Source of the DNA: a virus
Reading direction: 5' to 3' (one strand)
Virus record (IMG/VR): IMGVR_UViG_3300028909_000334
Coordinates: 1-23,893 of that record
DNA length: 23,893 bases
In this document: piece after piece, positions 3,277 to 23,093 of the stretch
Position numbering within the stretch: the stretch's first letter is position 1
Layout: the number at the start of each line of letters is the position of its first letter
Notes under the pieces: generated by a model
Told to the model about the DNA's origin: nothing
Database searches by the model: none
What the model saw: only the letters and a program-made list of their open reading frames with translations
Position numbers and translations under genes: made by a program

Positions 3277-3308
3277 TTTGTTTGGTAAACTAAAGTTTAC
3301 TATCTTTG
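3277..3308 (+). promoter_or_regulatory. Bacteroidota-type promoter with internal operator
   Basis: TTTG at 3277-3280 (or 3281-3284) and TATCTTTG at 3301-3308, 20 bases apart, match the Bacteroidota -33/-7 consensus. The spacer holds the palindrome GTAAACTAAAGTTTAC, which ends directly at the -7 box. The first downstream gene starts at 3353. The same arrangement recurs at 23062-23093. Confidence 0.85.
3285..3300. promoter_or_regulatory. Palindromic operator GTAAAC-N4-GTTTAC
   Basis: A perfect 6+6 inverted repeat with a TAAA centre fills the promoter spacer. A dimer bound here would block RNA polymerase. The second copy is at 23070-23085 with a TTTT centre. Confidence 0.7.
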
Positions 3309-3352
3309 TGTAACAAATCAGGAAATGGTTTCTTGTTTAAAAAAAAAACAAA

Positions 3353-3652
3353 ATGTACACAGCAAACAAAGTAAACGGAATAGGTGAAGTGATAGCACGG
3401 GATGTAAATATCATAACTGTTTATTTTTCTGAAACAGATAAGACGACTAAATATCCTGTTGCTTATGGACCTGTAATGTATGCTACCATTGAAGAGGCGG
3501 AAGCATCATTTGACGTTAAAGATAGCGCCGAAACAATGACCGCTATCTATAATGCAAATGTAGAGGCTGATAAAATAGCAGCAAGCAACAGGGGTGCAAG
3601 TGACTGGCTGGCTGAAAAGAATAGGGAAAACGCAATAAAGAACATGAAATAA
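3353..3652 (+). CDS. Unknown small protein, first gene of an operator-controlled unit
   Basis: 99 residues, family not recognised. The N-terminal half, 'NGIGEVIARDVNIITVYF' followed by 'TTKYPVAYGPV', alternates hydrophobic residues with turns. This looks like a small beta-barrel or SH3-like fold. The C-terminal half is a charged helix (about 58-99). It has no membrane segment or catalytic motif. It starts 45 bases after the -7 box behind an A-run leader (AAAAAAAAAACAAAATG). As the first gene behind a strong regulated promoter it is probably an early phage gene. It is followed 28 bases later by another small gene. Confidence 0.8.
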   Translation: MYTANKVNGIGEVIARDVNIITVYFSETDKTTKYPVAYGPVMYATIEEAEASFDVKDSAETMTAIYNANVEADKIAASNRGASDWLAEKNRENAIKNMK

Positions 3653-3680
3653 TATACTTAACCACTTAAAACAAAACAAA

Positions 3681-3956
3681 ATGAAAGTAATAATCAATGC
3701 AACCGTTCCAAAATCTTACCAGACGCCATCACTTCGTCACTTCGGTATGGGATGCAACGCAAATGGCAATGGTCGCTATTCCGCGTCAATGACCTTCGAT
3801 ACAATGAAGGAAGCAAAAGAATTTCTTGTAACACGTGCTGAATACTATTTTGAAGATGAAAAATCTTTGAAGAAAGCAAAAAGAGCTATACGCATGTATG
3901 GCGTGTTACGCATTGATGCAGTTTCTGCACGAATAGAAAAAATCGAAACTGAATAA
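3681..3956 (+). CDS. Unknown small basic protein
   Basis: 91 residues, not recognised. The order is a strand-like N-terminus (MKVIINATV), a Gly/Asn-rich loop (FGMGCNANGNG, about 21-31) and a strongly charged helical half with many Lys and Glu (DEKSLKKAKRAIRMYG). The basic helix could bind nucleic acid, but no known motif is visible. The start follows the leader TTAACCACTTAAAACAAAAC AAA directly upstream of the ATG. It is the second gene of the unit starting at 3353. Confidence 0.8.
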   Translation: MKVIINATVPKSYQTPSLRHFGMGCNANGNGRYSASMTFDTMKEAKEFLVTRAEYYFEDEKSLKKAKRAIRMYGVLRIDAVSARIEKIETE

Positions 3957-3992
3957 GTTGCCGGAATTTCTTAACCACAAAACCAAAACAAG

Positions 3993-4310
3993 ATGACCGA
4001 TCAACAAAATAGCTGCAAGGAACTAATATTAAAGACATTTAGCGGATGGGATATTTACTTTTTAAGCGCTTCCGGTAGCTCAGTATCTTTATATTTTGAA
4101 ATAAATGGCCTAAAATGTAGATTCTCGAATCATGGTATTTCAAATAAAGTAAGAATGGATACCGAAATATGCTTTGATCTTCCAAATGCAAGTGGCTCTA
4201 ATATTTTGCAGTGCGAATATTCGTTTGAGTTAAGGGCTAAAATATATAAGGCACGTCTGACCAATAAACAAAAGAGGGCGTATTCTGGATGGCTTCAAAT
4301 GGAGTGTTAA
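3993..4310 (+). CDS. Unknown small protein, last gene before a terminator
   Basis: 105 residues, not recognised. The central part alternates polar and hydrophobic residues (SGSSVSLYFEINGLKCRFSNH), suggesting beta strands. It ends in a basic helix (about 80-105, KIYKARLTNKQKRAYSGWLQ). Three Cys residues are scattered and do not form a zinc pattern. The leader TTAACCACAAAACCAAAACAAG resembles that of the preceding gene. A factor-independent terminator lies 80 bases after the stop. Confidence 0.75.
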   Translation: MTDQQNSCKELILKTFSGWDIYFLSASGSSVSLYFEINGLKCRFSNHGISNKVRMDTEICFDLPNASGSNILQCEYSFELRAKIYKARLTNKQKRAYSGWLQMEC

Positions 4311-4391
4311 AGGCTAACGAGGGGTGCGGGAGAAACAGCACATGGGAGTACGTACTTTTATTTGATTAATTTCTTGCCCTACCTTTTCGTA

Positions 4392-4422
4392 ACGGCCGAC
4401 TGGAAACGGGGCCGTATTTTTT
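4392..4422 (+). terminator. Factor-independent terminator
   Basis: Stem ACGGCC (4392-4397) pairs with GGCCGT (4410-4415) around a 12-base loop and is followed by a run of six T (4417-4422). It closes the unit starting at 3353. Confidence 0.85.
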
Positions 4423-4873
4423 ATGTGAAAAATCGCTATAACTGTTTACGGGGCATAAAATGAAGGATGCGGATGGAGAAATATATTAACTTACTACTTT
4501 ATATATTGTGCATTTATTATAAAATTCAGATATATTAATGCTGTTTTCTTATATTACAGTTACTACTATACTCATACCTTACTCAGTGTTAACTATTGTC
4601 TTACTCAATTGATTTCCAATACTTTAAGTATAAAATAGTTAAAATAAGGGGAAATTGGAATAAGAAAAATAAAAAAAGCAAAAAAGGCTAAATAAACAGT
4701 TATAAAGCGTAATAATAATATAAAATACTGATTATAACTGTTTATTTGAGAAAATACAAAAAATAATTAGGCCCTGTTTGGCGCGAAATCTTAACTACTT
4801 TCGCATAACAGCCCTGGGCGCGGTTTTTCAGTGAGTAGGGTTTGAGGAACATGTATTATAGTAAAGTATATTC
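4423..4873. other. AT-rich non-coding region with repeats; candidate origin or control region
   Basis: No gene is supported between 4311 and 4915. The stretch after the terminator is very AT-rich. It contains three occurrences of TATAACTGTTTA (direct at 4437-4448, and as the two arms of an inverted repeat at 4690-4747) and several TTACT/TTACTCA words between 4490 and 4620. It lies directly upstream of the primase-helicase operon. Origin function is only inferred from composition, repeats and place. A 10-bp palindrome AGTACGTACT sits at 4347-4356, before the terminator. Confidence 0.45.
4690..4747. repeat. 16-bp perfect inverted repeat
   Basis: AAATAAACAGTTATAA at 4690-4705 is the exact reverse complement of TTATAACTGTTTATTT at 4732-4747, with 26 bases between. 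The core TATAACTGTTTA also occurs at 4437-4448 next to the terminator. The arms are too far apart and too AT-rich for a good terminator; paired binding sites fit better. Confidence 0.85.
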
Positions 4874-4902
4874 TTTGATGTAAAATAATACTACTACTTT
4901 TG
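4874..4902 (+). promoter_or_regulatory. Probable Bacteroidota-type promoter
   Basis: TTTG at 4874-4877 and TACTTTTG at 4895-4902 are 17 bases apart, slightly short of the usual 19. The start codon of the next gene is only 13 bases after the -7 box, so the leader would be very short. Confidence 0.6.
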
Positions 4903-4915
4903 TAAAAAAAACAAA

Positions 4916-5299
4916 ATGGCAACTTTAAAATTATACGTGCATCAAAGGGCAGTTATCAATTTAACTGCCGGGGAAATAAAAGCACTTACGGCTAAATTCG
5001 GAAGCGTGGATTTAGGAATTAAAACATTCCTTGACGAAGGTTTTTTAAAAATAGGTTTTTATGGTTATGAAAAAGAAGAATTACAGCCATCGGATATAAT
5101 TCTTCTTTTTTTTGAACCGGGGACGAAAGCAGACGGAACACCGATGATATTGCGCGAGGTCAAGGAATATTTGCTAAATAAAAAACAACCTTATAGAAAA
5201 ATAACCACTACATCTATGCACTTAGCTGGATTTACGTTAATAAAAAATCTATTGCCCAACCGCAGTGCTGGGTATTACGTAAAGGTTAAAAATATATAA
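4916..5299 (+). CDS. Unknown protein sharing a C-terminal domain with the primase-helicase
   Basis: 127 residues. The N-terminal half is unrecognised. The C-terminal part (about 78-127) matches residues 678-725 of the primase-helicase encoded 300 bases downstream: L-x2-(I/V)-K-x-Y-L-x2-K near the start, then AGF, NL-x-PNRS-x-G-(F/Y)-x-V and a final I in the same order. The two share this module, whose function I cannot name; a DNA- or partner-binding domain is likely, since it is the last folded part of the helicase. It is the first gene of the replication unit, with an A-rich leader (GTAAAAAAAACAAA before the ATG). Confidence 0.8.
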   Translation: MATLKLYVHQRAVINLTAGEIKALTAKFGSVDLGIKTFLDEGFLKIGFYGYEKEELQPSDIILLFFEPGTKADGTPMILREVKEYLLNKKQPYRKITTTSMHLAGFTLIKNLLPNRSAGYYVKVKNI

Positions 5300-5355
5300 T
5301 CAGTATATTTGGTTTTCAAGAAATAAATAGTATTATTGCGTATCATTTATAAAAT

Positions 5356-5586
5356 ATGGAACAGACACTTATAAGGGGTGGACGCGGGTACGTTGACGAA
5401 TCCCGCGCTGAAATCATCAGGGCTTACGTTTTCAAATACATTGGAGATTGGCATACGTTTGAATGCGATAATATTGCATCTTTTAAATCAGCGCACTACC
5501 GTTATTTAGCGGCAAACAAACTTGCCTATATTTTCCGATTCGAGCATCTCGGCAACACGAACTGGCGTGTAAAGCGCGTTTCATAA
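5356..5586 (+). CDS. Unknown small protein upstream of the primase-helicase
   Basis: 76 residues, not recognised. It is compact and aromatic-rich (YVFKYIGDWHTF, SAHYRYLAANKLAYIFRFEHLG), basic near the C-terminus (NTNWRVKRVS), with no membrane segment. It ends 19 bases before the primase-helicase gene. A helix-turn-helix-like fold in 34-60 is possible, but I see no clear pattern. Its role is probably in replication by association only. Confidence 0.7.
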   Translation: MEQTLIRGGRGYVDESRAEIIRAYVFKYIGDWHTFECDNIASFKSAHYRYLAANKLAYIFRFEHLGNTNWRVKRVS

Positions 5587-5605
5587 CTTTTTTTTCGTCA
5601 AAAAT

Positions 5606-7873
5606 ATGCCCGATACCGTCATTAGCTTTTATAGTGATATTCACGATACGAAGTCTAAAAAAGAATATATTTTACAATACTTTTTGTCCGACATAAAAAC
5701 CGGCAAGTGGGAGGATTTTGTAAATAAAATAAGGCTGGAAAAAGATAAAGTAAAACAGCGGGCCGCAAAAAAAATGTGTCCGTCTGTTACAATTTCCGGC
5801 CATTTCGCAAGCGAGCGCACAGATGGTTCATTAACGAAGCATAGCGGATTTATAGCTCTGGATTTTGACGATTTAGGAAATGACGTTGAGTTGTTTAAAT
5901 CGCTCATAAATGCAGATCCGTACACTTACGCGAGCTGGACGACTATACGCGGGGTTGGGGTGTGTGTTCTATTCAGGATCGACGGCAAAAAACACCGCGA
6001 AAGCTTTGAGGGCATCCAGCAATATATTTACGAAAAATATCCCGAATTTTCTCCCAACCTCGACAGCAGCTGCATCAATGAAAGCCGCGCGAGGTTTGTT
6101 AGCTTCGACCCTCATTTATTTGAAAGGCACGATCCATACGAAGTGCCTGTTTTTAAACAGTACCCGAAAAAAGAAAAGGTACAAAAAATAGAAAAAATAA
6201 TTTACGTACAAAGCGATTTTGAGCGTATTATACAAGAAATTCAGCAAAAACATATACAGATAATCCCGGATGACGCGGATGGGTATAAGAATTTATTACG
6301 ATGCGGTTTTGCGCTGGCTGATAAATTTGGCGAATCGGGCCGTAATTATTGGCACTCATTATGCCATCTAAACAAAGGGTACTCCCCGCGTACCGCTGAT
6401 AAAAGATACACATCTTGCCTGAAAGCAAAAGGCAATGGCGTTACAATGGGGTCGCTTTATTATTACGTAAAAAAAGCAGGCATTGAAATATATTCCCCGG
6501 AAACAACCAATATAATCCGCGCAACGTCCAACCTGCGGAAATCAGGGCTTACGCCGGACGCAATCGCGACTCAACTGTTTAAAAAAGAAGGGATTGCAAA
6601 AGAAATAAGTCTGCCGGTCATAAATGAGGTAATCAATAACCAATTTGTTTTAAAAGACGAAACAGAAAGTACCGAAGATGAGATAATGAATTTTCTTAAA
6701 ATGAATTATGAGATTGAGGAAAATTACATTACAAATAAACTGGAAATTGAAGGAAAGGTTTTGACGACAAAGGATTTAAACAGTATGTACGTCGATGTGA
6801 AGCGGACGATTGAAAAGGCGAAAACAATAGCTATAAAAGAGATCTTGCATAGTAATTTCGTGAAAACATACAATCCATTTCAAAGATTTTTTTCTGACAA
6901 TGAGGGCAAAATCCCACAGAACCCGGAAAAATTTATACACTCATTTTTGAAATGCCTCAATACCGACAACCGGGCATACCTTGAAAAATTTACCACGAAA
7001 TGGATGGTTTCTATCATTCAAGCAATGCAAGGCGGCTATTCGCCTCTATTTCATATTTTATGCGGCGATCCCGGAACTGGAAAGACGCATTTTCACAGGT
7101 ATTTATTGCCTGAATATCTTTTGCCTTATGTCACTGAAGATAATTTGGCGGACCTCAATAAAAAGAAAGTGGATACGGAAAAATTATTGATTGACAATCT
7201 TTTGTTGATCATGAACGACATAGACGAATCTTTTTTGCGTAAAATTTCACAAAACAAATCACTGACGGACAGCCGGATATTCGAGGGCCGGTTAGCCTAT
7301 GCGGAAACATCCGAAAAGCGCAAGCGGCTGGCCGTGCTTTGTGGAAATGCTAACATTTATAATATAGTACATGATCCGTCTATAAACAGGCGTTATGTGC
7401 CATGTTCAATTACCGGACCTATGCAGCAGTCCATTTATAATTCATGCAACAAAACAGAATTGCTGATGGCTTGCTATCAGTTGCATAAAGAAGGATATGT
7501 TTGGCAGATATTGGGAGAAGACATTAACGAATTGGATTTGCATACTCGGGAGTTTCACGAATATGGGGATGGTGTGAACCTGCTTAAAAAGTATTTCAAA
7601 CCAGGAAATCCGCAAGACAGCTGGGCAAAGAAAATGACATTGACCGATATAAAATCATATTTGGCGAGTAAAACGTCATTGAAAATATCATTGAGCCGGG
7701 CGGAGGTTCAAGGGGCTGGATTTCCTTATTATGTAAATTTATTCCCCAACCGGTCCCCTGGTTTTGTCGTTGAGGAAATAAGTGATTACGGCGGTATAAT
7801 CCCGCCTGCAAACACCGGATACCAAACCCCGTCTAATAATAATTTTGGCAACGGTTCCGACTTACCATTTTAA
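5606..7873 (+). CDS. Primase-helicase (BT4734-like/VirE_N primase, PriCT-2, VirE-type helicase)
   Basis: 755 residues. It would prime and unwind phage DNA at the fork. The N-terminal part (about 60-175) has the archaeo-eukaryotic primase-like pattern of BT4734/VirE_N proteins: HSGFIALDFDDLG with acidic D86 and D88, then RARFVSFDPHLF (161-172). Residues 204-297 fit a PriCT-2 linker (LRCGFALADKFGESGRNYWHS ending in MGSLYYYVKKAGIEI). The helicase core follows, with Walker A GDPGTGKT (487-494), Walker B LLIMNDID (533-540) and an arginine-finger candidate at NRRYVP (594-599). Residues 678-725 form a small domain shared with the protein at 4916-5299. The last residues, GNGSDLPF, resemble the acidic tip of bacterial SSB. 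The start at 5606 follows a 19-base gap after the previous stop. Confidence 0.9.
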   Translation: MPDTVISFYSDIHDTKSKKEYILQYFLSDIKTGKWEDFVNKIRLEKDKVKQRAAKKMCPSVTISGHFASERTDGSLTKHSGFIALDFDDLGNDVELFKSLINADPYTYASWTTIRGVGVCVLFRIDGKKHRESFEGIQQYIYEKYPEFSPNLDSSCINESRARFVSFDPHLFERHDPYEVPVFKQYPKKEKVQKIEKIIYVQSDFERIIQEIQQKHIQIIPDDADGYKNLLRCGFALADKFGESGRNYWHSLCHLNKGYSPRTADKRYTSCLKAKGNGVTMGSLYYYVKKAGIEIYSPETTNIIRATSNLRKSGLTPDAIATQLFKKEGIAKEISLPVINEVINNQFVLKDETESTEDEIMNFLKMNYEIEENYITNKLEIEGKVLTTKDLNSMYVDVKRTIEKAKTIAIKEILHSNFVKTYNPFQRFFSDNEGKIPQNPEKFIHSFLKCLNTDNRAYLEKFTTKWMVSIIQAMQGGYSPLFHILCGDPGTGKTHFHRYLLPEYLLPYVTEDNLADLNKKKVDTEKLLIDNLLLIMNDIDESFLRKISQNKSLTDSRIFEGRLAYAETSEKRKRLAVLCGNANIYNIVHDPSINRRYVPCSITGPMQQSIYNSCNKTELLMACYQLHKEGYVWQILGEDINELDLHTREFHEYGDGVNLLKKYFKPGNPQDSWAKKMTLTDIKSYLASKTSLKISLSRAEVQGAGFPYYVNLFPNRSPGFVVEEISDYGGIIPPANTGYQTPSNNNFGNGSDLPF

Positions 7874-7909
7874 AAGCGCAAAAATAGTTTGAAAATTTTT
7901 TAAAATAAA

Positions 7910-7940
7910 TTTGGTTTAAAACAAAATGGTTGTATCTTTG
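7910..7940 (+). promoter_or_regulatory. Bacteroidota-type promoter
   Basis: TTTG at 7910-7913 and TATCTTTG at 7933-7940 are exactly 19 bases apart. The next gene starts at 7980, about 40 bases downstream. The palindromic operator of the promoters at 3277 and 23062 is absent here. Confidence 0.85.
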
Positions 7941-7979
7941 TTCTGAAATCAAATCATAACAATTAAAACAACCAAAATT

Positions 7980-8507
7980 ATGAACCAAGCAAAGAAGTTT
8001 ACCGAATTAGTTGCAGCCGCTAACATTCAGTTCCCAGGATTTGGAATTACTGAAATAATCATAGGCTATGAAGGATTTGAGGACCAGGACGAAGTAGCTA
8101 CCACGTCCATGTATGACCTTCCAACAGAAGTAAGGGAGTGGATAAAAACACAGGTGAAAATTCACACTGCTTTGAAAGCAAAAACAATAGAAGTTCTTAC
8201 TGTTTTAGGATTTGATTTTTCGCAGTTTGATAATGGATCTGAATTATCGGAAATCAAAGAAAGGGCAATTGAATTTTTACAGGCACATTCGAGCGAATTA
8301 GAACAAAATAGCGATGAATGTGAAGTACACGGAAACGGAAGTAGGCAGTCTGTAAATTATGATGACTCTTATTTGTATGCTTATGCTGCTGCTGATGCTG
8401 CTGATGCTGCTGCTGATAAGTATCTACTTATATCAGCTAATATCTGTTTAGAAGCATTAAAAGAGCTTAAAAGTCCGGGTGTAGAATTCTTATATCTTTG
8501 TGATTAA
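7980..8507 (+). CDS. Unknown protein with Ala/Asp/Tyr-rich low-complexity segment
   Basis: 175 residues, not recognised. The N-terminal 115 residues look like an acidic globular domain. Residues about 131-148 are low complexity (YLYAYAAADAADAAADKYL), encoded by GCT/GAT codon runs at 8377-8419, and lead into a Leu-rich amphipathic C-terminal helix. The 193-residue minus-strand protein at 11245-11826 has the same plan: a globular N-terminus, Ala/Tyr/Asp repeats, then a short Leu/Lys-rich helix. The 242 bases after its stop hold no supported gene. The start is placed behind the leader ACAATTAAAACAACCAAAATT. Confidence 0.8.
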   Translation: MNQAKKFTELVAAANIQFPGFGITEIIIGYEGFEDQDEVATTSMYDLPTEVREWIKTQVKIHTALKAKTIEVLTVLGFDFSQFDNGSELSEIKERAIEFLQAHSSELEQNSDECEVHGNGSRQSVNYDDSYLYAYAAADAADAAADKYLLISANICLEALKELKSPGVEFLYLCD

Positions 8508-11244: not shown

Positions 11245-11826
11245 TCATATCTGTATAATTTCCGGCTTTTCAATGAATTTTTTCAACATATCCAATAAGG
11301 CGTAGTCGTAGTCGTTGGCGTAGGCGTGGGTGTTGGCGTAGGCGTAGGCGTAGGCGTTGGCGATGGCGTAGGCGTTGGCGTAGTCGTAGTCGTTGGCGAT
11401 GGCGATGGCGTAGGCGTGGGTGTTGGCGTAGGCGTAGGCGTAGTCGTAGTCGTTGGCGTAGGCGTGGGTGTTGGCGTTTCTTTTTTCATTGAATTCACTC
11501 AAGCTTATTACACCGTTGGTATATTGTTCACATATGCCGATCAATTCTGCAACTTCCTTTTTTTCAAACCATCCATTTTTTTTGCACTCGGATTTGTACT
11601 GGAATAAATTCACTTTTGCGCAATTCAAATTCAATATTTGTTTTTCTTTTGTTGTCAAATCGCAATTTTTGAATACAAACCAAAACTTATGCTCCACCGG
11701 TATTTCAAGATTTAGTATTTCCTGAATTTCCATGCTTTCAGGAAATTCGTGGCGCCGGTCAACGCAATTTTCAGGCTCAAAATAACATCCAAAATCTACT
11801 TCTTCTTTTTTAAATTGATGCTTCAT
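11245..11826 (-). CDS. Unknown protein with hexanucleotide-coded Ala/Tyr/Asp/Asn repeats
   Basis: 193 residues, not recognised. The first about 118 residues form a unique, Cys- and Lys-rich region. Residues 117-175 are built from repeated blocks such as ANTHAYA and NDYDYA, mostly with Ala at every second position. A Leu/Lys-rich helix closes the protein (LLDMLKKFIEKPEIIQI). The repeat is coded by GCC followed by TAC, AAC, GAC, ATC or CAC, so it is a degenerate six-base DNA repeat. It is the last gene of the long minus-strand run, 40 bases after a 41-residue gene. There is no signal peptide or membrane segment. The 175-residue protein at 7980 has a similar plan. Confidence 0.75.
   Translation of the reverse strand: MKHQFKKEEVDFGCYFEPENCVDRRHEFPESMEIQEILNLEIPVEHKFWFVFKNCDLTTKEKQILNLNCAKVNLFQYKSECKKNGWFEKKEVAELIGICEQYTNGVISLSEFNEKRNANTHAYANDYDYAYAYANTHAYAIAIANDYDYANAYAIANAYAYAYANTHAYANDYDYALLDMLKKFIEKPEIIQI
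11299..11476. repeat. Hexanucleotide repeat tract (GGCGTA and variants) with 40-bp exact duplication
   Basis: About 30 six-base units of GGCGTA, GTCGTA, GTCGTT, GGCGTT, GGCGAT and similar lie inside the minus-strand gene. A 40-base stretch at 11299-11338 is repeated exactly at 11437-11476, 138 bases away. Because the unit is a multiple of three and free of stops, several reading frames stay open on both strands, but only the minus frame ending at 11245 extends into unique protein sequence on both sides. Confidence 0.9.
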
Positions 11827-11991: not shown

Positions 11992-13910
11992 ACCGTTTGT
12001 AATTTATCAGTGAGTAATTCAACTTTAAAATCAGGATAAAGTTTCCGTGCGCGCTGCGCCATGTATTCTTTTATCTTTTCATTCATGCCACGCCAAACCC
12101 CGATATGTTTTGTTTTGTCGGGGTTTTGATTTTGGATCGCCTTCCATTTTTTGCCAATTTCTTTCCCGATCTCCCAAAGTTGCAAAAATAATTCCATATC
12201 CATACCGCCGGAATTTACATCGTGCCAGTCCTGTACCAGTTTTTGCGTTTCCGATTTCAGCGCTTCAAAAGGGGTCATGCTTTTTGATTCAAAAAGATCC
12301 AGCAACTTCACCAAAATATTTTGGTCTATTTTTTCCTTTTTCAGTTTGAAAGCCACAAAATCAGGCTCTTCTACGAGCTTGACGGGGAAAACATATCCAC
12401 ACGGAACCATTAGCGGCTGGTTGCAAGGCAGAAATAAAGTATCATCAATGATATTATCGCATGATGTATCTTCATTTGCGTTTGCAGCCCCACAGAAGGG
12501 GCAAGATGGCAGGCATTTGTTTTGGGTGCATATCCGGGCGGCGGCGTGGTTTATGCCCTTGCATTGAGGGCAAAACTTAGTAGGCGCAATTCCGTTACCC
12601 GGCTTGCCGGGATTCCAAAATATTTCTGCCAAATCACGATCTGCGTCCCAATCCCCAAGCAATGCAGTACTATTGTGCATATCAAGAAATATAAAATATT
12701 CTTTTCCCTGAAACGTGCGTGAGAAACGCCCCGCAATCTGCATCATAAGAGGCCAACTATTCACGTACCTGTTTAATATGCATACTTGCAGTGATGGTAT
12801 ATCTATACCAGTAGTGGCAAGGTCGCCGCCGAAATTGCCCACCGCGCCAGGGTAATGCTCCCACCATTGCCAAAACCATTTACGGTACGATTCGTAATCA
12901 TTCCACTTACCATCTGCATCAGTGCGCCATTCAGGGTCGTACATTTCGCTTTTTTCGTCCCCTGGCCAATTATCGCCATCCAGGTGCCGCGCGTTGTAAC
13001 CGTCGGCCACAAATGCAGCAGTCATGGCTAATGAGTGTTCAATGCTCGAATTATAGCATCCGATTTGTTGGCCACGAAATTTTTCCGCTTCCCTCAAAAC
13101 CGCTTTAATAAATTTTGGTTTTTTTAATATACGCCCTTCGTGCGCGAGGTCAATTTTGCCGGATCCTACAATTGTTTTTTTATCCAATGCGTCTAATCCG
13201 TCGTCGGGGATTACGGAAACACAATCCACCAGCCCTTCTCTCTGATTTTTTTTATGCCATGCCTGCAATTCACTAATTTGAGGACCTGTAATGATCTGCC
13301 CATAATTCGGTACGCCAATCCTATTTTGCTTGTATGTTACAATAGTTTGATATCGCGATTTTAGCGGCAGTTTTTTAGTTGCGCTTTTTGGCGTAGCGGT
13401 GAAGCCGATAATTTTAATACCGCGATCTTTCATTTGGTTTTCAAAAGCCACATGCTCGCCTCTGTGACATTCGTCAATGATAACTAAACCGATATTATCG
13501 TAAAGTGATGCAAGTCCGTGGCTATCTCTTAATGAATTTGCTTTTTTGATACGGTTCATAACCGTCCGTACCATGGCCACATAAACCCGGCTGGGGCGTA
13601 TTTTTTTGGCGTTTGCGTCAATGACCGTTGCAATTAGTTCGTTTCCGTTGGTATCTATAATTGCGGTGCGGATGCTGTTACGCATACCCTCTACCAATTT
13701 ATCCCTGTGAAATACGGTCAGGACTGATTTTGTGGGATTTGCCGCTAAGAATCGCTGGATTATCATAGCGGCCTCGAAGGTCTTCCCTGCGCCCGTCGGG
13801 CGACATAAAACGGCTGTAGAGTAGTTCTCTACATACAGAGTGCGGATAGTGGCGTTACATCCGTCAGTTTGCCAGTAACGGGGTTGGAAATTTGGCGAAA
13901 GTGTGTACAT
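11988..13910 (-). CDS. DEAD/DEAH-type helicase with C-terminal cysteine clusters
   Basis: 640 residues, a superfamily 2 helicase that uses ATP to remodel DNA or RNA. Motif I is RPTGAGKT (37-44), motif II IIDECH (144-149), motif III FTATP (170-174), and motif VI QIAGRFSR (391-398) in the second RecA-like domain. At 447-484 seven Cys residues in CPQCKG, ICTQNKCLPSCPFC and TSC suggest zinc-ribbon-like modules. The rest (490-640) is a helical tail of unknown role. The start directly follows the stop of a small membrane-peptide gene. Related helicases occur in phages near replication and methyltransferase genes. The exact substrate cannot be told. Confidence 0.9.
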   Translation of the reverse strand: MYTLSPNFQPRYWQTDGCNATIRTLYVENYSTAVLCRPTGAGKTFEAAMIIQRFLAANPTKSVLTVFHRDKLVEGMRNSIRTAIIDTNGNELIATVIDANAKKIRPSRVYVAMVRTVMNRIKKANSLRDSHGLASLYDNIGLVIIDECHRGEHVAFENQMKDRGIKIIGFTATPKSATKKLPLKSRYQTIVTYKQNRIGVPNYGQIITGPQISELQAWHKKNQREGLVDCVSVIPDDGLDALDKKTIVGSGKIDLAHEGRILKKPKFIKAVLREAEKFRGQQIGCYNSSIEHSLAMTAAFVADGYNARHLDGDNWPGDEKSEMYDPEWRTDADGKWNDYESYRKWFWQWWEHYPGAVGNFGGDLATTGIDIPSLQVCILNRYVNSWPLMMQIAGRFSRTFQGKEYFIFLDMHNSTALLGDWDADRDLAEIFWNPGKPGNGIAPTKFCPQCKGINHAAARICTQNKCLPSCPFCGAANANEDTSCDNIIDDTLFLPCNQPLMVPCGYVFPVKLVEEPDFVAFKLKKEKIDQNILVKLLDLFESKSMTPFEALKSETQKLVQDWHDVNSGGMDMELFLQLWEIGKEIGKKWKAIQNQNPDKTKHIGVWRGMNEKIKEYMAQRARKLYPDFKVELLTDKLQTV

Positions 13911-14073: not shown

Positions 14074-14074
14074 A

Positions 14075-15340: not shown

Positions 15341-17629
15341 TTAGTAAAGTATTAAGTCATTATCGTTATCGTCAACAGGTTCTTGTATTTGTTCGCTAAA
15401 TATTAGTTTAGGTGTTTTTAAATCCATTTCAGCGTCGCGGATATTTTTTATCGACTCATTGAAGTACGAAGTTTTTAGCTCAAAACTAATAGCCTTGCGC
15501 CCCATTTTAACCCATGTGTAACTTTCTGACCCGATGCCGCCAAACATGCTGAGGCACGTATCGCCATGGTTTGTCCAAAGCATCGTGGCGCGTTCTATTG
15601 TTTCCAATTGCAATGGGCAAATGTGCTTTTCGTCGTCGTTTTCCCGCGCTTTACGCCCGTTCAGGGTTTTGGTTTGGTTAACATCCATCCATACGGGCGA
15701 TGCTATTTGCTGCCATTTTGCAACAGGTATGTAATTCGGCAGTGTCGGGTTGGTGTCTTGGTTTACCACGGGATTTTCATTATTGCCGGGTGCCCGGAAA
15801 ACTAATAAATAATCGGGCATCCCCACTCGGCTCATAGAGCTGTCTTTTTTCACCTGCTTATGCAGCAAACCTAATGCTTTAGTCCGCTGCATTTCGGTTA
15901 CGGGGTCTTTCCATATCGTTACGCGGCAATGGTAAATAAACCCTGCGTCTGTCATTTGTTTAACCAACATGCCCGACCAGTCCCGCAATCCGATAAAGCC
16001 TTCTTTGCCCTTCATTATAGGCGTATCCATGCAATGTATTGCCACATTTCGCCCTGGTTGCATAACCCTCAATAGCTTGGGCGGGATAAAGGAAAAGAAT
16101 TTATTAAATTCGTCATAATCCTTGCAGTTGCCCAAATCTTCGGGTTCGGAGCTGTAAACATACAGCTCAGGGAATGGCGGCGAAAACATAGAGAACCCGA
16201 TGCTTTTATCAGCCAGTTGGTCAACGCATTGGATGCAGTCACCCAAATAACCTGTCCAATTTTCCGTTTTCTCAATCCTTATTTCCCGCGCCGGCAAGTG
16301 GTCTGTTTTAAAAATTTCCGACATTGCTATTTGCATTTCGTGTTGCATTTCTGTGAATTTTCTTTGTTTTTCCCTGAGTGAAACAACAATATTTTCCATT
16401 GTGTCGGTACTGATAATATAAGCGTTTACGGTTAATTTTTGCCCAAACCGCCATTCCCTGCGGATGGCTTGGTAAAGCCCCTCGAATGAAAAATCAGGGC
16501 TTGCAAAAATCATATTCCGGCAATTTTGGTAATTCAACCCCATCCCGGCAATTTTTATTTTCGTTATCAGGATGCGGAAATTACTTTTTGAAAATCCCAA
16601 AAGGATTTCTTTTTTAAATTCGGGTGTGTCCGACCCGGTTACTTCAAAGTATTCTTTTTCATCAATTCCGGATGCCGCAAACATTTTGCGTAATGTTTCC
16701 CCTTCCTCATTTTGCTTAACCCAAATAATAAAAGATTCTTTGCTTTCTTTCACGATATTTACAACTTCGTCCATCCGTTGTATTTTCGTCAACCTCAATT
16801 CAGCATTATGAGTGGTTGCAGAAACGGTGTTATCGTTAAACAATTTGGCATTTTCTTTTTTTGGGGTGATAATTAATTTTTCGATATACTCTAATGGCGG
16901 CAAGGCATAACCGTCATCTGAAAATCCAATATCGGAAGGTTTGCTTAACATTATTGCCCAACTGGATACCCACGCCCAAAAGCGTTTTTTCCCGTGGCCT
17001 TTAATCCGCCAAACACCCGTATCGCCGCTGTCATGGACAAAGAACATGGCCAGCATTACATTATGCTGCAAAATGCCCAAAAATTCGCTGTGGCTACCTA
17101 ATTCCGTTGGGTCGTTAGGTGATGGGGTGGCGGTGCAGCATAATTTATAGGCGGTGTTTTTAAAACCATTTATAAGTTTCTCTTTATAAACCCCGTCAAA
17201 AGATTTAATAATGCTGGATTCATCCAATACGATGCCGGAAAATAAATCAGTTTTTATGTTGTCTATTTGTTCATAGTTAGTTATGTATATACCGGAAATT
17301 ACAGGGTAATCCGGGTTATATTCCGTAACATTTATCCCTATTGCCGCCCCCTCTGCAATAGTCTGCCCAATCACGGCTAATGGCGCAAATATTATAACCG
17401 GGTTGCCCGTATGGCGTACTACTTCATTTGCCCACGTTAGTTGTTGGCGGGTTTTGCCTAAACCACAATCCTCGAATAATGCGAAACGGCCGTATTCGAG
17501 TGCTTTTTTGACACAAAACGATTGAAATGGATACAGCCATGGCCAATTATTTTCGCAAACAAAACCGCACGGGATATGTTTTTTTTCTTTGGCGGCTAAA
17601 AGTTGGAGATATTCTTTGTTATCGCTCAT
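15341..17629 (-). CDS. SNF2-like helicase fused to a DNA methyltransferase
   Basis: 762 residues. The N-terminal about 440 residues form a superfamily 2 (SNF2-like) helicase with Walker A CGLGKT (55-60), motif II VLDES (134-138), motif III CTATP (165-169) and motif VI QAIRREWRFGQ (387-397). The C-terminal part is an amino-methyltransferase of the motif IV-before-motif I (beta-type) order, with SPPF (483-486) as the catalytic loop, typical of N4-cytosine or N6-adenine enzymes, then HICPLQLETIERA (669-681) and the AdoMet-binding FGGIGSES (696-703). DNA translocation coupled to methylation is implied. It is coupled by ATGA to the 81-residue gene upstream. Phage-encoded fusions of this type may protect phage DNA from host restriction; a defence or regulatory role is also conceivable. 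Confidence 0.9.
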   Translation of the reverse strand: MSDNKEYLQLLAAKEKKHIPCGFVCENNWPWLYPFQSFCVKKALEYGRFALFEDCGLGKTRQQLTWANEVVRHTGNPVIIFAPLAVIGQTIAEGAAIGINVTEYNPDYPVISGIYITNYEQIDNIKTDLFSGIVLDESSIIKSFDGVYKEKLINGFKNTAYKLCCTATPSPNDPTELGSHSEFLGILQHNVMLAMFFVHDSGDTGVWRIKGHGKKRFWAWVSSWAIMLSKPSDIGFSDDGYALPPLEYIEKLIITPKKENAKLFNDNTVSATTHNAELRLTKIQRMDEVVNIVKESKESFIIWVKQNEEGETLRKMFAASGIDEKEYFEVTGSDTPEFKKEILLGFSKSNFRILITKIKIAGMGLNYQNCRNMIFASPDFSFEGLYQAIRREWRFGQKLTVNAYIISTDTMENIVVSLREKQRKFTEMQHEMQIAMSEIFKTDHLPAREIRIEKTENWTGYLGDCIQCVDQLADKSIGFSMFSPPFPELYVYSSEPEDLGNCKDYDEFNKFFSFIPPKLLRVMQPGRNVAIHCMDTPIMKGKEGFIGLRDWSGMLVKQMTDAGFIYHCRVTIWKDPVTEMQRTKALGLLHKQVKKDSSMSRVGMPDYLLVFRAPGNNENPVVNQDTNPTLPNYIPVAKWQQIASPVWMDVNQTKTLNGRKARENDDEKHICPLQLETIERATMLWTNHGDTCLSMFGGIGSESYTWVKMGRKAISFELKTSYFNESIKNIRDAEMDLKTPKLIFSEQIQEPVDDNDNDLILY

Positions 17630-17918: not shown

Positions 17919-17931
17919 CTTTTTACAAAAA

Positions 17932-17962
17932 TTTGGAAATAAGGAAAAGTTGTTTAATTTTG
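17932..17962 (+). promoter_or_regulatory. Bacteroidota-type promoter of the recombination operon
   Basis: TTTG at 17932-17935 and TAATTTTG at 17955-17962 are exactly 19 bases apart. The first gene starts at 18017 and the operon runs to the terminator at 21387. Confidence 0.85.
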
Positions 17963-18016
17963 CGGTATAAAAGGAAATTTCGATTATTATTTTAACCTCT
18001 TTTAACGCCGGATAAC

Positions 18017-18124
18017 ATGCATTCCGAAAAAGAAACAGATTTTGACCCGGTAAGCAAATCCATCCTGATTGCAATTGCAATATTGGTTTTTGCATTGACT
18101 ATTAAAAACTTATTTTATAACTAA
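18017..18124 (+). CDS. 35-residue single-pass membrane peptide
   Basis: Reads MHSEKETDFDPVSKSILIAI, then AILVFALTIKNLFYN. The first 14 residues are acidic and polar; residues 15-28 plus neighbours form one hydrophobic helix. It starts about 55 bases after the -7 box and ends 15 bases before the annealing-protein gene. It is too short to name. Its place directly behind the promoter supports it being translated. Confidence 0.6.
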   Translation: MHSEKETDFDPVSKSILIAIAILVFALTIKNLFYN

Positions 18125-18139
18125 ACAACAAAATAGAGT

Positions 18140-18709: not shown

Positions 18710-20094
18710 GCAACATACACAACAAAATAGAAACCGGGCTTGGTCTTATTACTGGATCGGAAGTGTGGAAACTTATGCCTGCTGCATTGGGTAAGATAAC
18801 ACCGGAATCGGAATTATCAGTAGGTGCAAAAACCTATATTGAAGAGCGTTTTTGGATGCTTGCGGATGGATTTTCACCGGACGTAAAGGCATCAAGCCTG
18901 CAATATGGCATAGACCATGAGCCAATAGCGTTAGCGGCACTTAGCGGCGTTGTAGGCCAACCTATTGAGCGCGGCACTTTTTTAAGGCACGAGTTGGGTT
19001 TTTTCGGATGCACCCCTGATACAAAGCCGGTAATGTATAATGGCGAAATTCACAGCGCGGAAATCAAATGCCCGTCCACAGGCCGGAGCCACCGCGAAAA
19101 CAGGGAAATCTGCATATCTTACAAAAACGAAACAAACCATTGGATGGATAGTGTTTGGGTAAAAAAATATCCTGAATTATTTTGGCAGACGCAGATGGAA
19201 ATGTATATGGATGGAACCAAAAAATGTATATTTATGTCTTACCATGATACATCTGCCGGTTTAAATCTTGACACGGATATTGTAATGTGTGTATTCAACC
19301 GCCGGGACGAAGCGATAGAATTGCTTTTGATGCAGCTTAAAAAAGCATGGGCATATTATCAAGAATATGCGTCAAGTGAGCTCATAGACGGCAAAGCACT
19401 TGACGTTGCAAAAGTGCTAGGTATCGAAAAAACAAAATTGGTCCCGATTGGTATCAGGGTTGACGAACCCGGCAAAATGGAAATGGAACATGCTGGATTG
19501 CAGGTAAACATGGATGCTGCCCCTGCGCCTGAAAAGACGAAAAAGGAAACCGCAAAAGAGAGAAAAGCGCGCGAGGAAAAAGAGTTTGCGGAAAAATTAG
19601 TGGAGTACACTGCTAAATTGCAGGCTTGCACCACACCCGAGGAACTTGACGCGCTGAGGCAAAAAGATAATGAGCCGTTTTTGAAGGCGACATTGGCTCA
19701 TTACATTGAGATGCGGGATAAAATGAATCGGCCAGTTGCAATAACCAAAGCCACTGCCGAAATATTGCCAAATGGCGACTTGGGTACGATCAAGGGCAGT
19801 ATTCCACCCGTTGAGCCGGAAACCGAAACACAAAAAAACGATTTACCAGCCCGCAAAAATGATGCGCTGTACGTGCAATTTGATGCCATAAAAACGGAGT
19901 TGACGGAGGATGAAATAACTGGGGCGTTTAAATTTGAACCGATGCTTAAATTTATGATGGATAATGCCAATTACATCGGCAGCGTAAATCCCAAACCCGA
20001 ATACGATGCCGATTTCCGAAACTACGTAATCCCATTACTAAAAGAATTAGGATATACAGATTGGATGAAAGCAAGAGTAACAAAGACCGTTTAG
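18706..20094 (+). CDS. YqaJ-type recombination exonuclease with long C-terminal extension
   Basis: 462 residues. YqaJ is the lambda-exonuclease-like nuclease that digests one strand from a DNA end so an annealing protein can bind. Motifs in order are GSEVWKLM (17-24), YGIDHEP with E72, GCTPD with D105, the core AEIKCP with E119 and K121, and FWQTQMEMYMDG (159-170) with two Gln. The nuclease ends near 235. Residues 270-350 are a Lys/Glu-rich coiled coil, and the C-terminal part (about 385-462) looks like a separate small helical domain. This extension makes the protein well over the usual length. It is coupled to the annealing-protein gene by ATGA. Confidence 0.9.
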   Translation: MSNIHNKIETGLGLITGSEVWKLMPAALGKITPESELSVGAKTYIEERFWMLADGFSPDVKASSLQYGIDHEPIALAALSGVVGQPIERGTFLRHELGFFGCTPDTKPVMYNGEIHSAEIKCPSTGRSHRENREICISYKNETNHWMDSVWVKKYPELFWQTQMEMYMDGTKKCIFMSYHDTSAGLNLDTDIVMCVFNRRDEAIELLLMQLKKAWAYYQEYASSELIDGKALDVAKVLGIEKTKLVPIGIRVDEPGKMEMEHAGLQVNMDAAPAPEKTKKETAKERKAREEKEFAEKLVEYTAKLQACTTPEELDALRQKDNEPFLKATLAHYIEMRDKMNRPVAITKATAEILPNGDLGTIKGSIPPVEPETETQKNDLPARKNDALYVQFDAIKTELTEDEITGAFKFEPMLKFMMDNANYIGSVNPKPEYDADFRNYVIPLLKELGYTDWMKARVTKTV

Positions 20095-20112
20095 CATATC
20101 AAGACACGATTA

Positions 20113-20145
20113 CGCCACCCTGCCATAACACGGCGGGGTTTGGCG
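20113..20145 (+). other. Stable hairpin between the exonuclease and SSB-like genes
   Basis: CGCCACCCTGCC (20113-20124) pairs with GGCGGGG and TGGCG (20132-20145) around loop ATAACAC, giving 12 base pairs with one G-U pair and a two-base bulge. It is followed by A rather than T, so it is not a plus-strand terminator. It may be an RNA processing or stability element within the operon. Confidence 0.6.
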
Positions 20146-20163
20146 GTAAAAAAAAACAAGCAA

Positions 20164-20454
20164 ATGACATACGCAATAACCGGCAAACTGATTGCCAAAT
20201 TAGGGACATTAACGGTAAATGACAAGTTTAAAAAACAAGAATTTGTCATTGAAGTATCGGAAGAAGTTAATGGAAATGTTTATCCCAACCCCATTAAAAT
20301 GCAGTTGGTGAATAACAGATGCTCTTTGGTGGATTTGGTGCCAATTGGCGCAAACATCAAATGCTCATTTAATATTAAGGGTAATTCATGGCAAAAAGAT
20401 GGGAAAGCAAATTACATGGTCAATCTTGATTGCTGGAAAATAGAAAACGCTTAA
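20164..20454 (+). CDS. DUF3127-type SSB-like protein
   Basis: 96 residues from the ATG at 20164. An in-frame TTG at 20140 would add eight residues, but it lies in the hairpin and lacks a leader. The sequence fits the Bacteroidota DUF3127 family: a G-K-L strand (ITGKLIAKLG), then FKKQEFVIEV, YPNPIKMQLVNNRCSLVDLV, GANIKCSFNIKGNSW and a final NYMVNLDCWKIE. These features follow the OB fold of single-strand binding proteins, so it probably protects or delivers single-stranded DNA to the annealing protein. It lacks the acidic SSB tip. Confidence 0.75.
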   Translation: MTYAITGKLIAKLGTLTVNDKFKKQEFVIEVSEEVNGNVYPNPIKMQLVNNRCSLVDLVPIGANIKCSFNIKGNSWQKDGKANYMVNLDCWKIENA

Positions 20455-20457
20455 ATC

Positions 20458-21009
20458 ATGCAAATAACCATCCCCGATAACTACGCCGCCGCAATACAAG
20501 ATAACGTCAATCTCGCCATTGCCGCCAACGAAGCGCTCACAACAGTTAATGATCTACTTTATGACGAATTGGGCATTGCGATAGAAATAACGCCTCATTT
20601 GGTGGAGCAAATCACCGAACTTATTGCGCCATTAGCAAAACGTTTTGATGAAAAGGCACGTACGCTATGGGGTGTGATACCTCATTTAGTGCCGCACGAT
20701 AACTACGTGGTACGGATCGGGCAAGAATTTAATCGCCGATGCACGGAGGTTGAAAATAACATGATTGAGCATGTCGATATTGTTTACCGTGGTGCGGTGA
20801 AAAATATTAGCATGGAGTACTTCAGGTTGCATATTGCGTATCTAAAAAATACCGCACCGAATTGGGGATTGAAATCTCCAAATTTTAACTTTGGGAATAC
20901 CTATGCGATGAACCTATGGGCTACAAAACCCGATATTTTTTGGCAGTCGAGATACAACAAAATGATAGATGATGCTTTTATTAATTTTGAAAATGATAAG
21001 GAGATATGA
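20458..21009 (+). CDS. Unknown protein in the recombination operon
   Basis: 183 residues, not recognised. It is mostly helical in the first half (residues 6-65) and mixed in the second, with several aromatic motifs (NWGLKSPNFNFGNTYAMNLW, PDIFWQSRYNKM). It starts three bases after the SSB-like gene and overlaps the next gene by four bases, so it is made with the recombination proteins. It has no catalytic motif and no membrane segment. Confidence 0.75.
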   Translation: MQITIPDNYAAAIQDNVNLAIAANEALTTVNDLLYDELGIAIEITPHLVEQITELIAPLAKRFDEKARTLWGVIPHLVPHDNYVVRIGQEFNRRCTEVENNMIEHVDIVYRGAVKNISMEYFRLHIAYLKNTAPNWGLKSPNFNFGNTYAMNLWATKPDIFWQSRYNKMIDDAFINFENDKEI

Positions 21010-21131
21010 CACGCAAAGAAAGAAAGCACACATTACTTACCGCATTCTATATGTACCTACATATAGCGGAGAATGCAAGGAACAAAAAGAAAGCCGGGAA
21101 TAAACCAAGACCGCATATTTTAAAGTTTTAA
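21006..21131 (+). CDS. 41-residue basic unknown protein
   Basis: Reads MTRKERKHTLLTAFYMYLHI, then AENARNKKKAGNKPRPHILKF. Its ATG overlaps the stop of the previous gene (ATGA). It is basic throughout with one amphipathic helix. The 3' part (21088-21106) duplicates the stem region of the operon terminator, so its tail may have arisen by a small duplication. Confidence 0.55.
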   Translation: MTRKERKHTLLTAFYMYLHIAENARNKKKAGNKPRPHILKF

Positions 21132-21145
21132 CCAACTAAAACAAA

Positions 21146-21379
21146 ATGAAAAGCAACAGCACACTTATAGCACTACATGAGAAGTGCATCAAGATACAAG
21201 AAATGATAAAGACCTGTGAAGACCGGATAAACGGGCATGAGCGATCTGCAAAATTTCACTTTGAATTAAGAAATGCCGATGCCTGTAAGTGGCAAATTGA
21301 ACGGCTAGAGGTGAACAAATGTATGATTGACCGGTTGAAATTGTACTATGTCAACACGTTTATTAAGTTAGTTATTTAA
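21146..21379 (+). CDS. Unknown coiled-coil-like protein, last gene of the recombination operon
   Basis: 77 residues, not recognised. It is almost entirely helical with heptad-like spacing (LIALHEKCIKIQEMIKTCED, WQIERLEVNKCMIDRLKLYY) and four Cys that do not form a metal pattern. The start follows the leader TTTAACCAACTAAAACAAA. The stop lies eight bases before the terminator hairpin. Confidence 0.7.
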   Translation: MKSNSTLIALHEKCIKIQEMIKTCEDRINGHERSAKFHFELRNADACKWQIERLEVNKCMIDRLKLYYVNTFIKLVI

Positions 21380-21386
21380 GCAAGAA

Positions 21387-21417
21387 AGCCGGGAATAAAC
21401 CCCGGCTACATATTTTT
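21387..21417 (+). terminator. Strong, probably bidirectional terminator
   Basis: AGCCGGG (21387-21393) pairs with CCCGGCT (21401-21407) around AATAAAC and is followed by T-rich TACATATTTTT. On the minus strand the same stem is followed by TTCTTGC, so it may also stop transcription of the leftward gene that ends at 21474. Confidence 0.85.
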
Positions 21418-21473
21418 AACCTTTTAAAGGTATATCCAACGCATAAATGATGTTATAAATCATGCCATCACTA

Positions 21474-22811
21474 TTAGTTATACTCTACAATATAAGACCA
21501 TTCGTAAACGGATGTTGATCCAAGATTTGTTATATCTTGGTAATTAAATCCTGACGCAGTACTTGTGGCAAAAAAACCTACGGTTATTCCAACATTTGCA
21601 GCTGCAATGTTATTCGGAAATAAAACCACATGCGAATTATTCGGGTAACTTTGGGTGTAAGCCAGATGAAAAATACTGCCCGTAGTTGACACTGCTCCGG
21701 TCGTAATCTGTATCACCCCGCTCCGATCATCCGATCCCGGCAATAGTACGTATGTTCCACCGGTACCGGCGGCAATCCCTAACGTTATGGTAGGGGGTTG
21801 TAGGTCGCCTATAATTTCTACTATGCCGGACCGTTGAGGAAATGTGTCTGTCACATCAGAACCGCTGTGCGGGTTTGTTATAAGTATATTATTATGGTTT
21901 GAAGTGCCGTCTATCAGTTCCAAACCACCGAACGTTGACGGGTAACCAGAACAAAATATACCCCCAATCATGTTACCGGATGAGTTGGCCCAGTTCGCGC
22001 CATATCTGTTAAAATTCCCGACAACAAAGCCACTGTTAAACATCTGAATTGCGGCTGGTTCATATTCTGTATATATACTCGAAAGATTGCCTACATTTAT
22101 GGGATTGATTGTTGTATGCGTTACGAATGAGTTATTGAATGCTGACGCAGTATTTGTTTCGTCAGGCAGATAGTAGTTGCGGTTACCGGTAAGTGGGTTA
22201 TCTTGTATTGATGCTGAGTAAGAGCTACTTATGTCCGCTAACTCAATATCTGGTTGGGCAGACCCATTACCTGAACTTGCAGACATCAATAGGCGGCCGC
22301 CATCGTCACGGTAATCCCAATAATCAGCACCCATGGCACCACTATAACCTGATGAATTTAGCAACTGAAAATAGTTTGTTCCACCCCCTGAATTAGACGC
22401 AGTATTACCATTGTTCAATACATTCTGAAATAAGCAAGTACATCCGCTTGTAATTGCGCTGTAAATAGCATCGTATCCGCTATCTGCTATGTGCATTGCG
22501 CTATCGGTTGCGCCCCCCACTACGAATGGACCTACACTGTTTGGTGCGGTCTGCGTTGTGATGTTTGCGTCCACCGTAGCCCGTTGGCTGTTGACCCATG
22601 TATGGAATTGCGCTGGTGTTGGCGCTTGCGCTGAACTGTCTACACCAGATGCGATAGCTACTACTGTCATGGCAGCTACTGTAATAGATGTGCGGATTCT
22701 TTGACCCCATACTTTTCCCGGTATCAGTTCTATTCTATCAGACGTATCAAGGGCTTGCCCCCGTGCGGTAAAAGCCATCCCGGCCATAAGTGCGAATAAT
22801 ATGCGTTTCAT
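21474..22811 (-). CDS. Fibre-like phage protein with N-terminal Sec signal peptide
   Basis: 445 residues. The N-terminus, MKRILFALMAGMAFTARGQA, has a basic start, a hydrophobic core and a likely cleavage site after GQA, so it reads as a Sec signal peptide, unusual for a tail protein. A second hydrophobic stretch (about 43-55) follows. The body resembles phage fibre-like proteins: CLFQNVLNNGNTAS (126-139) and NRNYYLPDETNTAS (210-223) fit the 'LQxVLdaGNtas' and 'yyLPdxsGT' patterns found in such proteins. The remainder is Gly/Ser/Asn/Thr-rich beta sequence. It may be exported to the cell surface or be a structural protein with a signal-like leader. It stands alone between the terminator and the divergent promoter. 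Confidence 0.65.
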   Translation of the reverse strand: MKRILFALMAGMAFTARGQALDTSDRIELIPGKVWGQRIRTSITVAAMTVVAIASGVDSSAQAPTPAQFHTWVNSQRATVDANITTQTAPNSVGPFVVGGATDSAMHIADSGYDAIYSAITSGCTCLFQNVLNNGNTASNSGGGTNYFQLLNSSGYSGAMGADYWDYRDDGGRLLMSASSGNGSAQPDIELADISSSYSASIQDNPLTGNRNYYLPDETNTASAFNNSFVTHTTINPINVGNLSSIYTEYEPAAIQMFNSGFVVGNFNRYGANWANSSGNMIGGIFCSGYPSTFGGLELIDGTSNHNNILITNPHSGSDVTDTFPQRSGIVEIIGDLQPPTITLGIAAGTGGTYVLLPGSDDRSGVIQITTGAVSTTGSIFHLAYTQSYPNNSHVVLFPNNIAAANVGITVGFFATSTASGFNYQDITNLGSTSVYEWSYIVEYN

Positions 22812-22815
22812 ATCG

Positions 22816-22846
22816 CAAATGTAATAAAAAAAAATAATTTTGCAAA
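22816..22846 (-). promoter_or_regulatory. Promoter of the fibre-like gene
   Basis: On the minus strand TTTG (22846 to 22843) and TACATTTG (22823 to 22816) are 19 bases apart. Only four bases separate the -7 box from the start codon, so the transcript would be leaderless or nearly so. It overlaps the plus-strand promoter at the palindrome TTTGCAAA (22839-22846). Confidence 0.75.
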
Positions 22847-22869
22847 TAGTAATTATTTATTTACCTTTG
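22839..22869 (+). promoter_or_regulatory. Promoter of the HTH gene at 22875
   Basis: TTTG at 22839-22842 and TACCTTTG at 22862-22869 are 19 bases apart. The start codon lies five bases after the box, so the transcript would be leaderless or nearly so. Confidence 0.8.
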
Positions 22870-22874
22870 GCGGC

Positions 22875-23060
22875 ATGGAAATGACAATATTAGAATACAG
22901 CAAAAAATATGGCGCAAGTGTGCAGTATTTACAACGGCTGATCCGACATAAAAAAACAGAATTGCTTATGGAATGGGGTGTGAAATCTTACAGGACGATA
23001 GGCGGTACTATATTACTAAACATAGACCCTACAATTGCTGAAAATAAATCTTTGAAATAA
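22875..23060 (+). CDS. Small HTH protein (excisionase/MerR-like)
   Basis: 61 residues. MTILEYSKKYGASVQYLQRL (3-22) reads as a winged helix-turn-helix of the kind in MerR-like regulators and excisionases: hydrophobic start, 'Y-x-K-x-Y-G' turn and Q-x-L-Q-R-L-I recognition helix. RTIGGTILLNID (40-51) forms the strand that follows in such proteins. It probably binds DNA as a regulator or excisionase-like factor. The near-leaderless start behind its promoter is a feature also known for some phage repressors. The gene ends two bases before the -33 box of the operator-containing promoter, so it is a candidate for controlling it. Confidence 0.75.
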   Translation: MEMTILEYSKKYGASVQYLQRLIRHKKTELLMEWGVKSYRTIGGTILLNIDPTIAENKSLK

Positions 23061-23061
23061 A

Positions 23062-23093
23062 TTTGGTTGGTAAACTTTTGTTTACTATCTTTG
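23062..23093 (+). promoter_or_regulatory. Bacteroidota-type promoter with internal operator
   Basis: TTTG at 23062-23065 and TATCTTTG at 23086-23093, 20 bases apart, with GTAAACTTTTGTTTAC between them touching the -7 box. This is the same design as at 3277-3308. The gene start is at 23115. Confidence 0.85.
23070..23085. promoter_or_regulatory. Palindromic operator GTAAAC-N4-GTTTAC
   Basis: A perfect 6+6 inverted repeat with a TTTT centre inside the promoter spacer, matching the operator at 3285-3300 except for the central bases. Confidence 0.7.

Follow-up and report, generated by a model that had tools for sequence, protein, structure and literature searches.

A palindromic operator in the -33/-7 spacer of several promoters of a Bacteroidota phage, a likely target of a small DUF5053-like helix-turn-helix protein

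In phage lambda, one small helix-turn-helix (HTH) dimer, CI or Cro, acts on several early promoters (pR and pL) through the same operator sequence. In Bacteroides, engineered promoters carrying an operator between the -33 and -7 boxes, in tandem designs, are repressed (PMC9259675); these promoters are synthetic and based on LacI or RbsR, and most of them required a second operator close to the start site. Here we describe an inverted repeat, GTAAAC-N4-GTTTAC, in a phage of Bacteroidota bacteria. The window analyzed is a stretch of 23,893 nucleotides, which is the complete IMG/VR record IMGVR_UViG_3300028909_000334 but only a fragment of the phage genome. The repeat fills the spacer of two promoters in the window (P1 and P2, with operators O1 and O2), and a similar repeat fills that of a third (P3) in another contig of the same phage. 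As in lambda, one operator sequence is found at several promoters, but here each promoter has a single operator, placed in the -33/-7 spacer of a Bacteroidota promoter, no CI gene or divergent switch was seen, and the protein family concerned is a different one (DUF5053-like). Instead of a repressor gene beside clustered operators and divergent promoters, as in a lambda-type switch, single operators lie at three distant places. We regard it as likely that the repeat is the operator of a small DUF5053/Cro-like HTH dimer encoded by the phage, most likely by gene 9038 or gene 10189 (genes are named by their first position in the window), which would block P1, P2, and P3 together.

Both promoters have the boxes of the Bacteroidota primary sigma factor (sigma ABfr) consensus, TTTG at -33 and TAnnTTTG at -7 (as cited in PMC7366714), with the usual spacing of about 19 to 21 bases. 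An earlier note on this DNA had reported TTTG-N20-TATCTTTG at 3277-3308 and 23062-23093, in each case with GTAAAC-N4-GTTTAC in the spacer, and both units are present as described (Table 1). O1 and O2 are identical in all 12 arm bases and differ in the N4 loop. Each fits the class that we define here for DUF5053 operators, namely, a 6-4-6 inverted repeat in the spacer that abuts the -7 box. The exact operator occurs in the window only at 3285-3300 and 23070-23085, so the earlier statement that the window holds no third full copy was correct, and P1 and P2 are also its only perfect TTTG-N20-TAnnTTTG promoters. Chance was estimated with a Markov model of the window and with simulated sequence of the same dinucleotide composition. 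Per window, the expected number of perfect promoters was 0.31 and that of exact operators, on both strands, 0.005; a perfect 6-4-6 palindrome in the spacer was absent from all of the approximately 125 perfect promoters in the simulated sequence. The palindrome is not a generic trait of phage promoters, since other promoters of the same phage lack it.

The third unit was found in contig G005 (41,517 bases; IMGVR_UViG_3300028873_000040), which is 99.9% identical to the window across positions 1 to 22730, represents the same phage, and extends its known sequence 18.8 kilobases (kb) leftward. On the minus strand of G005, the stretch from operator to -7 box of P3 (G005:4602-4625) reads TTTGCTTAGTAAGTTTTTGTTTACTATCTTTG; its operator agrees in 10 of the 12 bases and keeps the same register. 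P3 precedes an orphan gene for a protein of 226 amino acids (aa) that adjoins the tape-measure gene. GTAA-N8-TTAC stands ahead of TAnnTTTG in G005 only at P1 and P3, and the many copies at random positions that would speak against a dedicated operator were found neither in the window nor in G005. The earlier note had spoken of two early operons, a number that becomes at least three small-gene transcription units with P3. It had also placed the match in the control region only. The likeness is indeed borne by the promoter; however, P2 and P3 are 81% similar over 54 bases running into the leader (..AACACG(A/G)AAGGT), so that it extends a little beyond the operator, over promoter and leader.

Similarity that continues into the leader is what duplicated promoters would show, and P1, P2, and P3 could owe their likeness to recent copying, without any regulator. 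Alternatively, the palindrome could be bound by an activator, as MerR-type activators bind in promoter spacers too. We consider both improbable. The 12 arm bases were kept in O1 and O2, but the loops differ (TAAA and TTTT), and unrelated phages and genomes keep the register with differing half-sites. An activator would also not be needed, since the -33 and -7 boxes match the consensus and are normally spaced.

Other genomes were scanned with patterns built from the promoter and operator only, blind to genes. The scan of Bacteroidales genomes gave four matches, and all four have a DUF5053 gene downstream. The operator promoter lies about 50 bases ahead of an open reading frame (ORF) of 57 to 68 aa, which is followed by the DUF5053 gene; this order was seen directly in three of the matches, and for the fourth, represented by 325 bases of fetched DNA, the DUF5053 gene was inferred from a family search that placed the only DUF5053 gene of that genome at the contig start. 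An ORF of 57 to 68 aa between operator promoter and DUF5053 gene was seen in several DUF5053 operons (for example, L022, L023, and L024). A host SOS/LexA box was considered and rejected, since the genome matches sit at DUF5053 operons and not at repair genes. Like P1 and P2, the DUF5053 operons of Bacteroidales and phages have the arrangement TTTG-N4-(6-4-6 palindrome)-TAnnTTTG, and several carry the exact GTAAAC half-site.

When viral contigs were scanned with a relaxed pattern (RTAAAY arms with the full promoter), 35 stretches were returned. Of 28 informative viral operator promoters, 21 are followed on the same strand by a DUF5053-like gene no more than 2 kb away; among palindrome-free promoters of these contigs, the proportion is 5 of 95 (p = 2e-13). 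Nine control contigs lack such a gene altogether. Two viral matches, L005 and L008, have no -33 TTTG box and are probably chance. In L127, L131, L132, L133, and L134, RTAAAY spacer operators occur with no DUF5053-like gene nearby, and these operators may belong to another regulator family or to chance. Another phage, seen in two contigs (L106 and L124), carries a shared GTAAWY operator at two promoters; the first heads an operon that includes a DUF5053-like gene, and the second precedes recombination genes. Between these two contigs the arms are kept, and the N4 loop and the N bases of the -7 box change; loss of the palindrome with retention of the boxes, which the earlier note had named as evidence against its proposal, was thus not seen. 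Two further phages each have two promoters with spacer palindromes. In the Flavobacterium phage FPSV-S1 (L102), divergent early promoters (29354 on the plus strand and 29282 on the minus strand) follow the same logic and share the AT-rich spacer palindrome TAATTnAAATTTAATTATATCTTTG. In L104 (MT835681), a gut phage distantly related by its terminase protein TerL, the promoters at 1558 and 3670 each have their own, different near-perfect spacer palindrome. In L015, a phage gene for tRNA-Met (CAT) at 15852-15926 on the minus strand has its own TTTG/TATCTTTG promoter with no operator.

The association was also analyzed from the side of the family, using 63 distinct DUF5053 (PF16476) genes whose upstream sequence was long enough. 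Of these 63 genes, 38 have a promoter whose spacer contains a 6-4-6 palindrome in this register; counted by promoter, the palindrome is present in 38 of 49 promoters upstream of a DUF5053 domain and in 7 of 124 other promoters of the same loci (p = 2.8e-21). The half-sites vary (GTAAAC, ATAAAC, ATAACC, ATAATC, ATATAC, ATACGA, ATAACA, and others), and the variation follows two residues of the protein. Residue 29, located in the recognition helix two positions ahead of a conserved W, predicts base 6 of the half-site in all 38 genes with a palindrome: K or R goes with C6 (30/30), and S, P, or D with A6 and Q with G6 (8/8; p = 2e-8). Residue 35 goes with base 1, K with G or T and R with A, in 36 of 38 genes (p = 1.6e-6). 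Twelve further viral pairs, 11 of them selected by a search for RTAAAY half-sites, agree at residue 29 in 12/12 cases and at residue 35 in 10/12. In the viral contig L109, outside the 63-gene set, the DUF5053 genes at 12063 and 11082 each lie behind their own operator (ATAAAC and ATACGA, respectively), and both fit the residue-29 rule. These counts ignore relatedness, which weakens them as support for our reading, and contrasting cases do occur within one genome and within one contig. A structure predicted for a DUF5053 protein was of too low confidence to be used (predicted local distance difference test score, pLDDT, 64). Judged from sequence, DUF5053 looks like a repressor family with a readable DNA code, and its members are probably self-regulating repressors that bind in the spacer at a fixed operator position.

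Within the known phage sequence, 210 ORFs were ranked with a profile of 56 DUF5053-like domains. The product of 10189 came first (E = 1.5e-5; hhalign probability 90%), and that of 9038, its paralogue with 37% identity, came third, behind an antisense ORF. Both have K at the position of residue 35, which goes with G1. At the position of residue 29, 9038 has K, which goes with C6, and 10189 has A, although 9038 aligns weakly with the family. For the model of 9038 (pLDDT 77), Foldseek gave a probability near 1, with an E of about 0.04, against Xre, C-protein, HipB, and phage 186 regulator folds. Among known systems, the phage CII/CP76 regulators (PF06892) and the C proteins of restriction-modification systems are close, the model resembling the phage 186 regulator and C.Esp1396I; however, the PF06892 match of 9038 is weak (E = 0.00094, below the family cut-off), and no sequence homologue was found among solved structures. 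A match of 10189 in L054 was rejected as chance. Compared with DUF5053 proteins, 9038 and 10189 are shorter and lack the N-terminal part. Since neither reaches the Pfam cut-off, we do not file them as DUF5053 members, but we infer that they would act like such members, and from the residues we lean to 9038 as the acting paralogue.

The earlier note had named a different protein, the 61-aa HTH protein encoded at 22875-23060, as the nearest candidate. Its gene stops two bases short of the adjacent P2, and the promoter of this gene contains a weak GTAA..TTAC palindrome. However, the protein matches no Pfam family, has no homologue in IMG/VR or INPHARED, and shows no detectable similarity to DUF5053; a palindrome with up to 3 mismatches is expected about 14 times per window, and the one in its promoter is displaced by 3 bases, into the -7 box. 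We therefore consider this protein a most improbable binder.

Alternatively, a prophage-type repressor (CI-like or DUF5053) could bind the operator, its gene lying in the unsequenced part of the phage or in the host, and the HTH pair of the window would then act otherwise. The record is a fragment, no known contig continuing the phage sequence beyond position 23893 was found, neither candidate gene adjoins an operator, and Bacteroidales chromosomes carry DUF5053 operons of the GTAAAC class whose protein could bind. Against this, 10189 is the most DUF5053-like known ORF of the phage, and 9038 agrees with the code at two positions. There is also no sign of lysogeny, since no integrase was noticed in the ORF lists of the window and G005 and no TerL relative was found among 395 Bacteroidota genomes. 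A repressor from outside the known phage sequence thus appears unlikely to us, though less so than the explanations discussed above.

Binding by 9038 or 10189 remains the reading that we prefer, and several points weigh against it. The two proteins are only distant DUF5053 relatives: 10189 is under the gathering cut-off of PF16476 (18.0 versus 26.6 bits, E = 0.0023), and 9038 has no DUF5053 match in Pfam. Their genes lie behind a separate, operator-free promoter (7910-7940) and not in an operator-headed operon, so no simple autoregulation is visible; DUF5053 operons, by contrast, themselves contain the regulator gene, downstream of the operator. At six viral operator sites, no DUF5053-like gene was seen in the vicinity. 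Part of the phage genome is missing, and a better regulator candidate may be encoded there. No close relative of the phage that could serve to test the pairing of regulator and operator was found: scans with TerL, primase, 9038, and the P2 gene returned only the same phage, the contig L048, which has a 58% TerL and no operator-promoter unit, and L053, a spurious match.

Genes for a primase-helicase, a nuclease, and both HTH proteins are among those downstream of the possible terminator at about 4391-4422. Since the two HTH genes lie past this terminator and behind the operator-free promoter, the HTH protein is probably made along with the replication genes, which suggests a Cro-like role. After infection, the TTTG/TAnnTTTG promoters would be read by host polymerase carrying the primary sigma factor of Bacteroidota. 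As the HTH protein accumulates, it would occupy the inverted repeat between the -33 and -7 boxes and keep the polymerase out, so that P1, P2, and P3 would be turned off together and a set of accessory early genes would be shut off. Such repression by occlusion agrees with the design of the engineered Bacteroides promoters, in which the operator in the -33/-7 region is combined with another close to the start site. The earlier idea that one protein could silence both operons therefore holds in that a single DNA-binding protein could control several promoters, with the palindrome as the operator between -33 and -7; that the control is silencing is what we infer.

Two other features of the window were noted (for further coordinates, see Table 1). 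A long inverted repeat, AAATAAACAGTTATAA / TTATAACTGTTTATTT, lies at 4687-4750 within a noncoding stretch of 600 bases (folding z, -3.95), and another TATAACTGTTTAC is found near 4438; this repeat could be a replication origin or a binding site. On the minus strand, the ORF at 11245-11826 contains a low-complexity AYANDYDYAYA repeat tract and is a simple-repeat region.

Table 1. Promoters, operators, genes, and other elements in the window
Feature	Position	Strand	Remarks
Promoter P1	3277..3308	+	-33 TTTG at 3277-3280; spacer N20; -7 TATCTTTG at 3301-3308
Operator O1, GTAAAC-TAAA-GTTTAC	3285..3300		Perfect 6-4-6 inverted repeat; abuts -7 box
P1 transcription unit	3353..4310	+	Three small ORFs (3353-3652, 3681-3956, 3993-4310); no family match
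Possible intrinsic terminator of P1 unit	4391..4422	+	ACGGCC..GGCCGT, then T run; weak folding z-score
Promoter TTTG-N19-TATCTTTG	7910..7940	+	No spacer palindrome; ahead of ORF 7980-8507 and later genes, including both candidate regulators
Small HTH protein, 82 aa	9038..9286	+	Candidate operator binder; model like Cro, C protein, and phage 186 CII
Paralogous small HTH protein, 72 aa	10189..10407	+	Candidate operator binder; most DUF5053-like of 210 phage ORFs
Promoter of 22875 gene, TTTG-N19-TACCTTTG	22838..22869	+	Weak GTAATTATTTATTTAC at 22849-22864, 3 mismatches, out of register; probably chance
HTH protein, 61 aa	22875..23060	+	Proposed in the earlier note; no link to operator found
Promoter P2	23062..23093	+	-33 TTTG at 23062-23065; spacer N20; -7 TATCTTTG at 23086-23093
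Operator O2, GTAAAC-TTTT-GTTTAC	23070..23085		6-4-6 inverted repeat abutting -7 box
First gene of P2 unit	23115..23471	+	118 aa; unit may run to window end

For the family, it seems reasonably likely that DUF5053, together with distant relatives from phages, makes up a large class of Bacteroidota spacer-binding repressors with a modular code, in which residue 29 specifies base 6 and residue 35 base 1, and that phages use a member of this class to switch off several early promoters together. The function of DUF5053 is apparently undescribed, as no paper mentioning the family was found in the literature library searched; the family now has a probable function as a self-regulating repressor, a fixed operator position, and a residue-to-base code. 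Phages also appear to share an operator among several of their promoters. These results make the control of early genes in phages of Bacteroidota directly testable, and orthogonal repressor-promoter pairs for gut bacteria could result.

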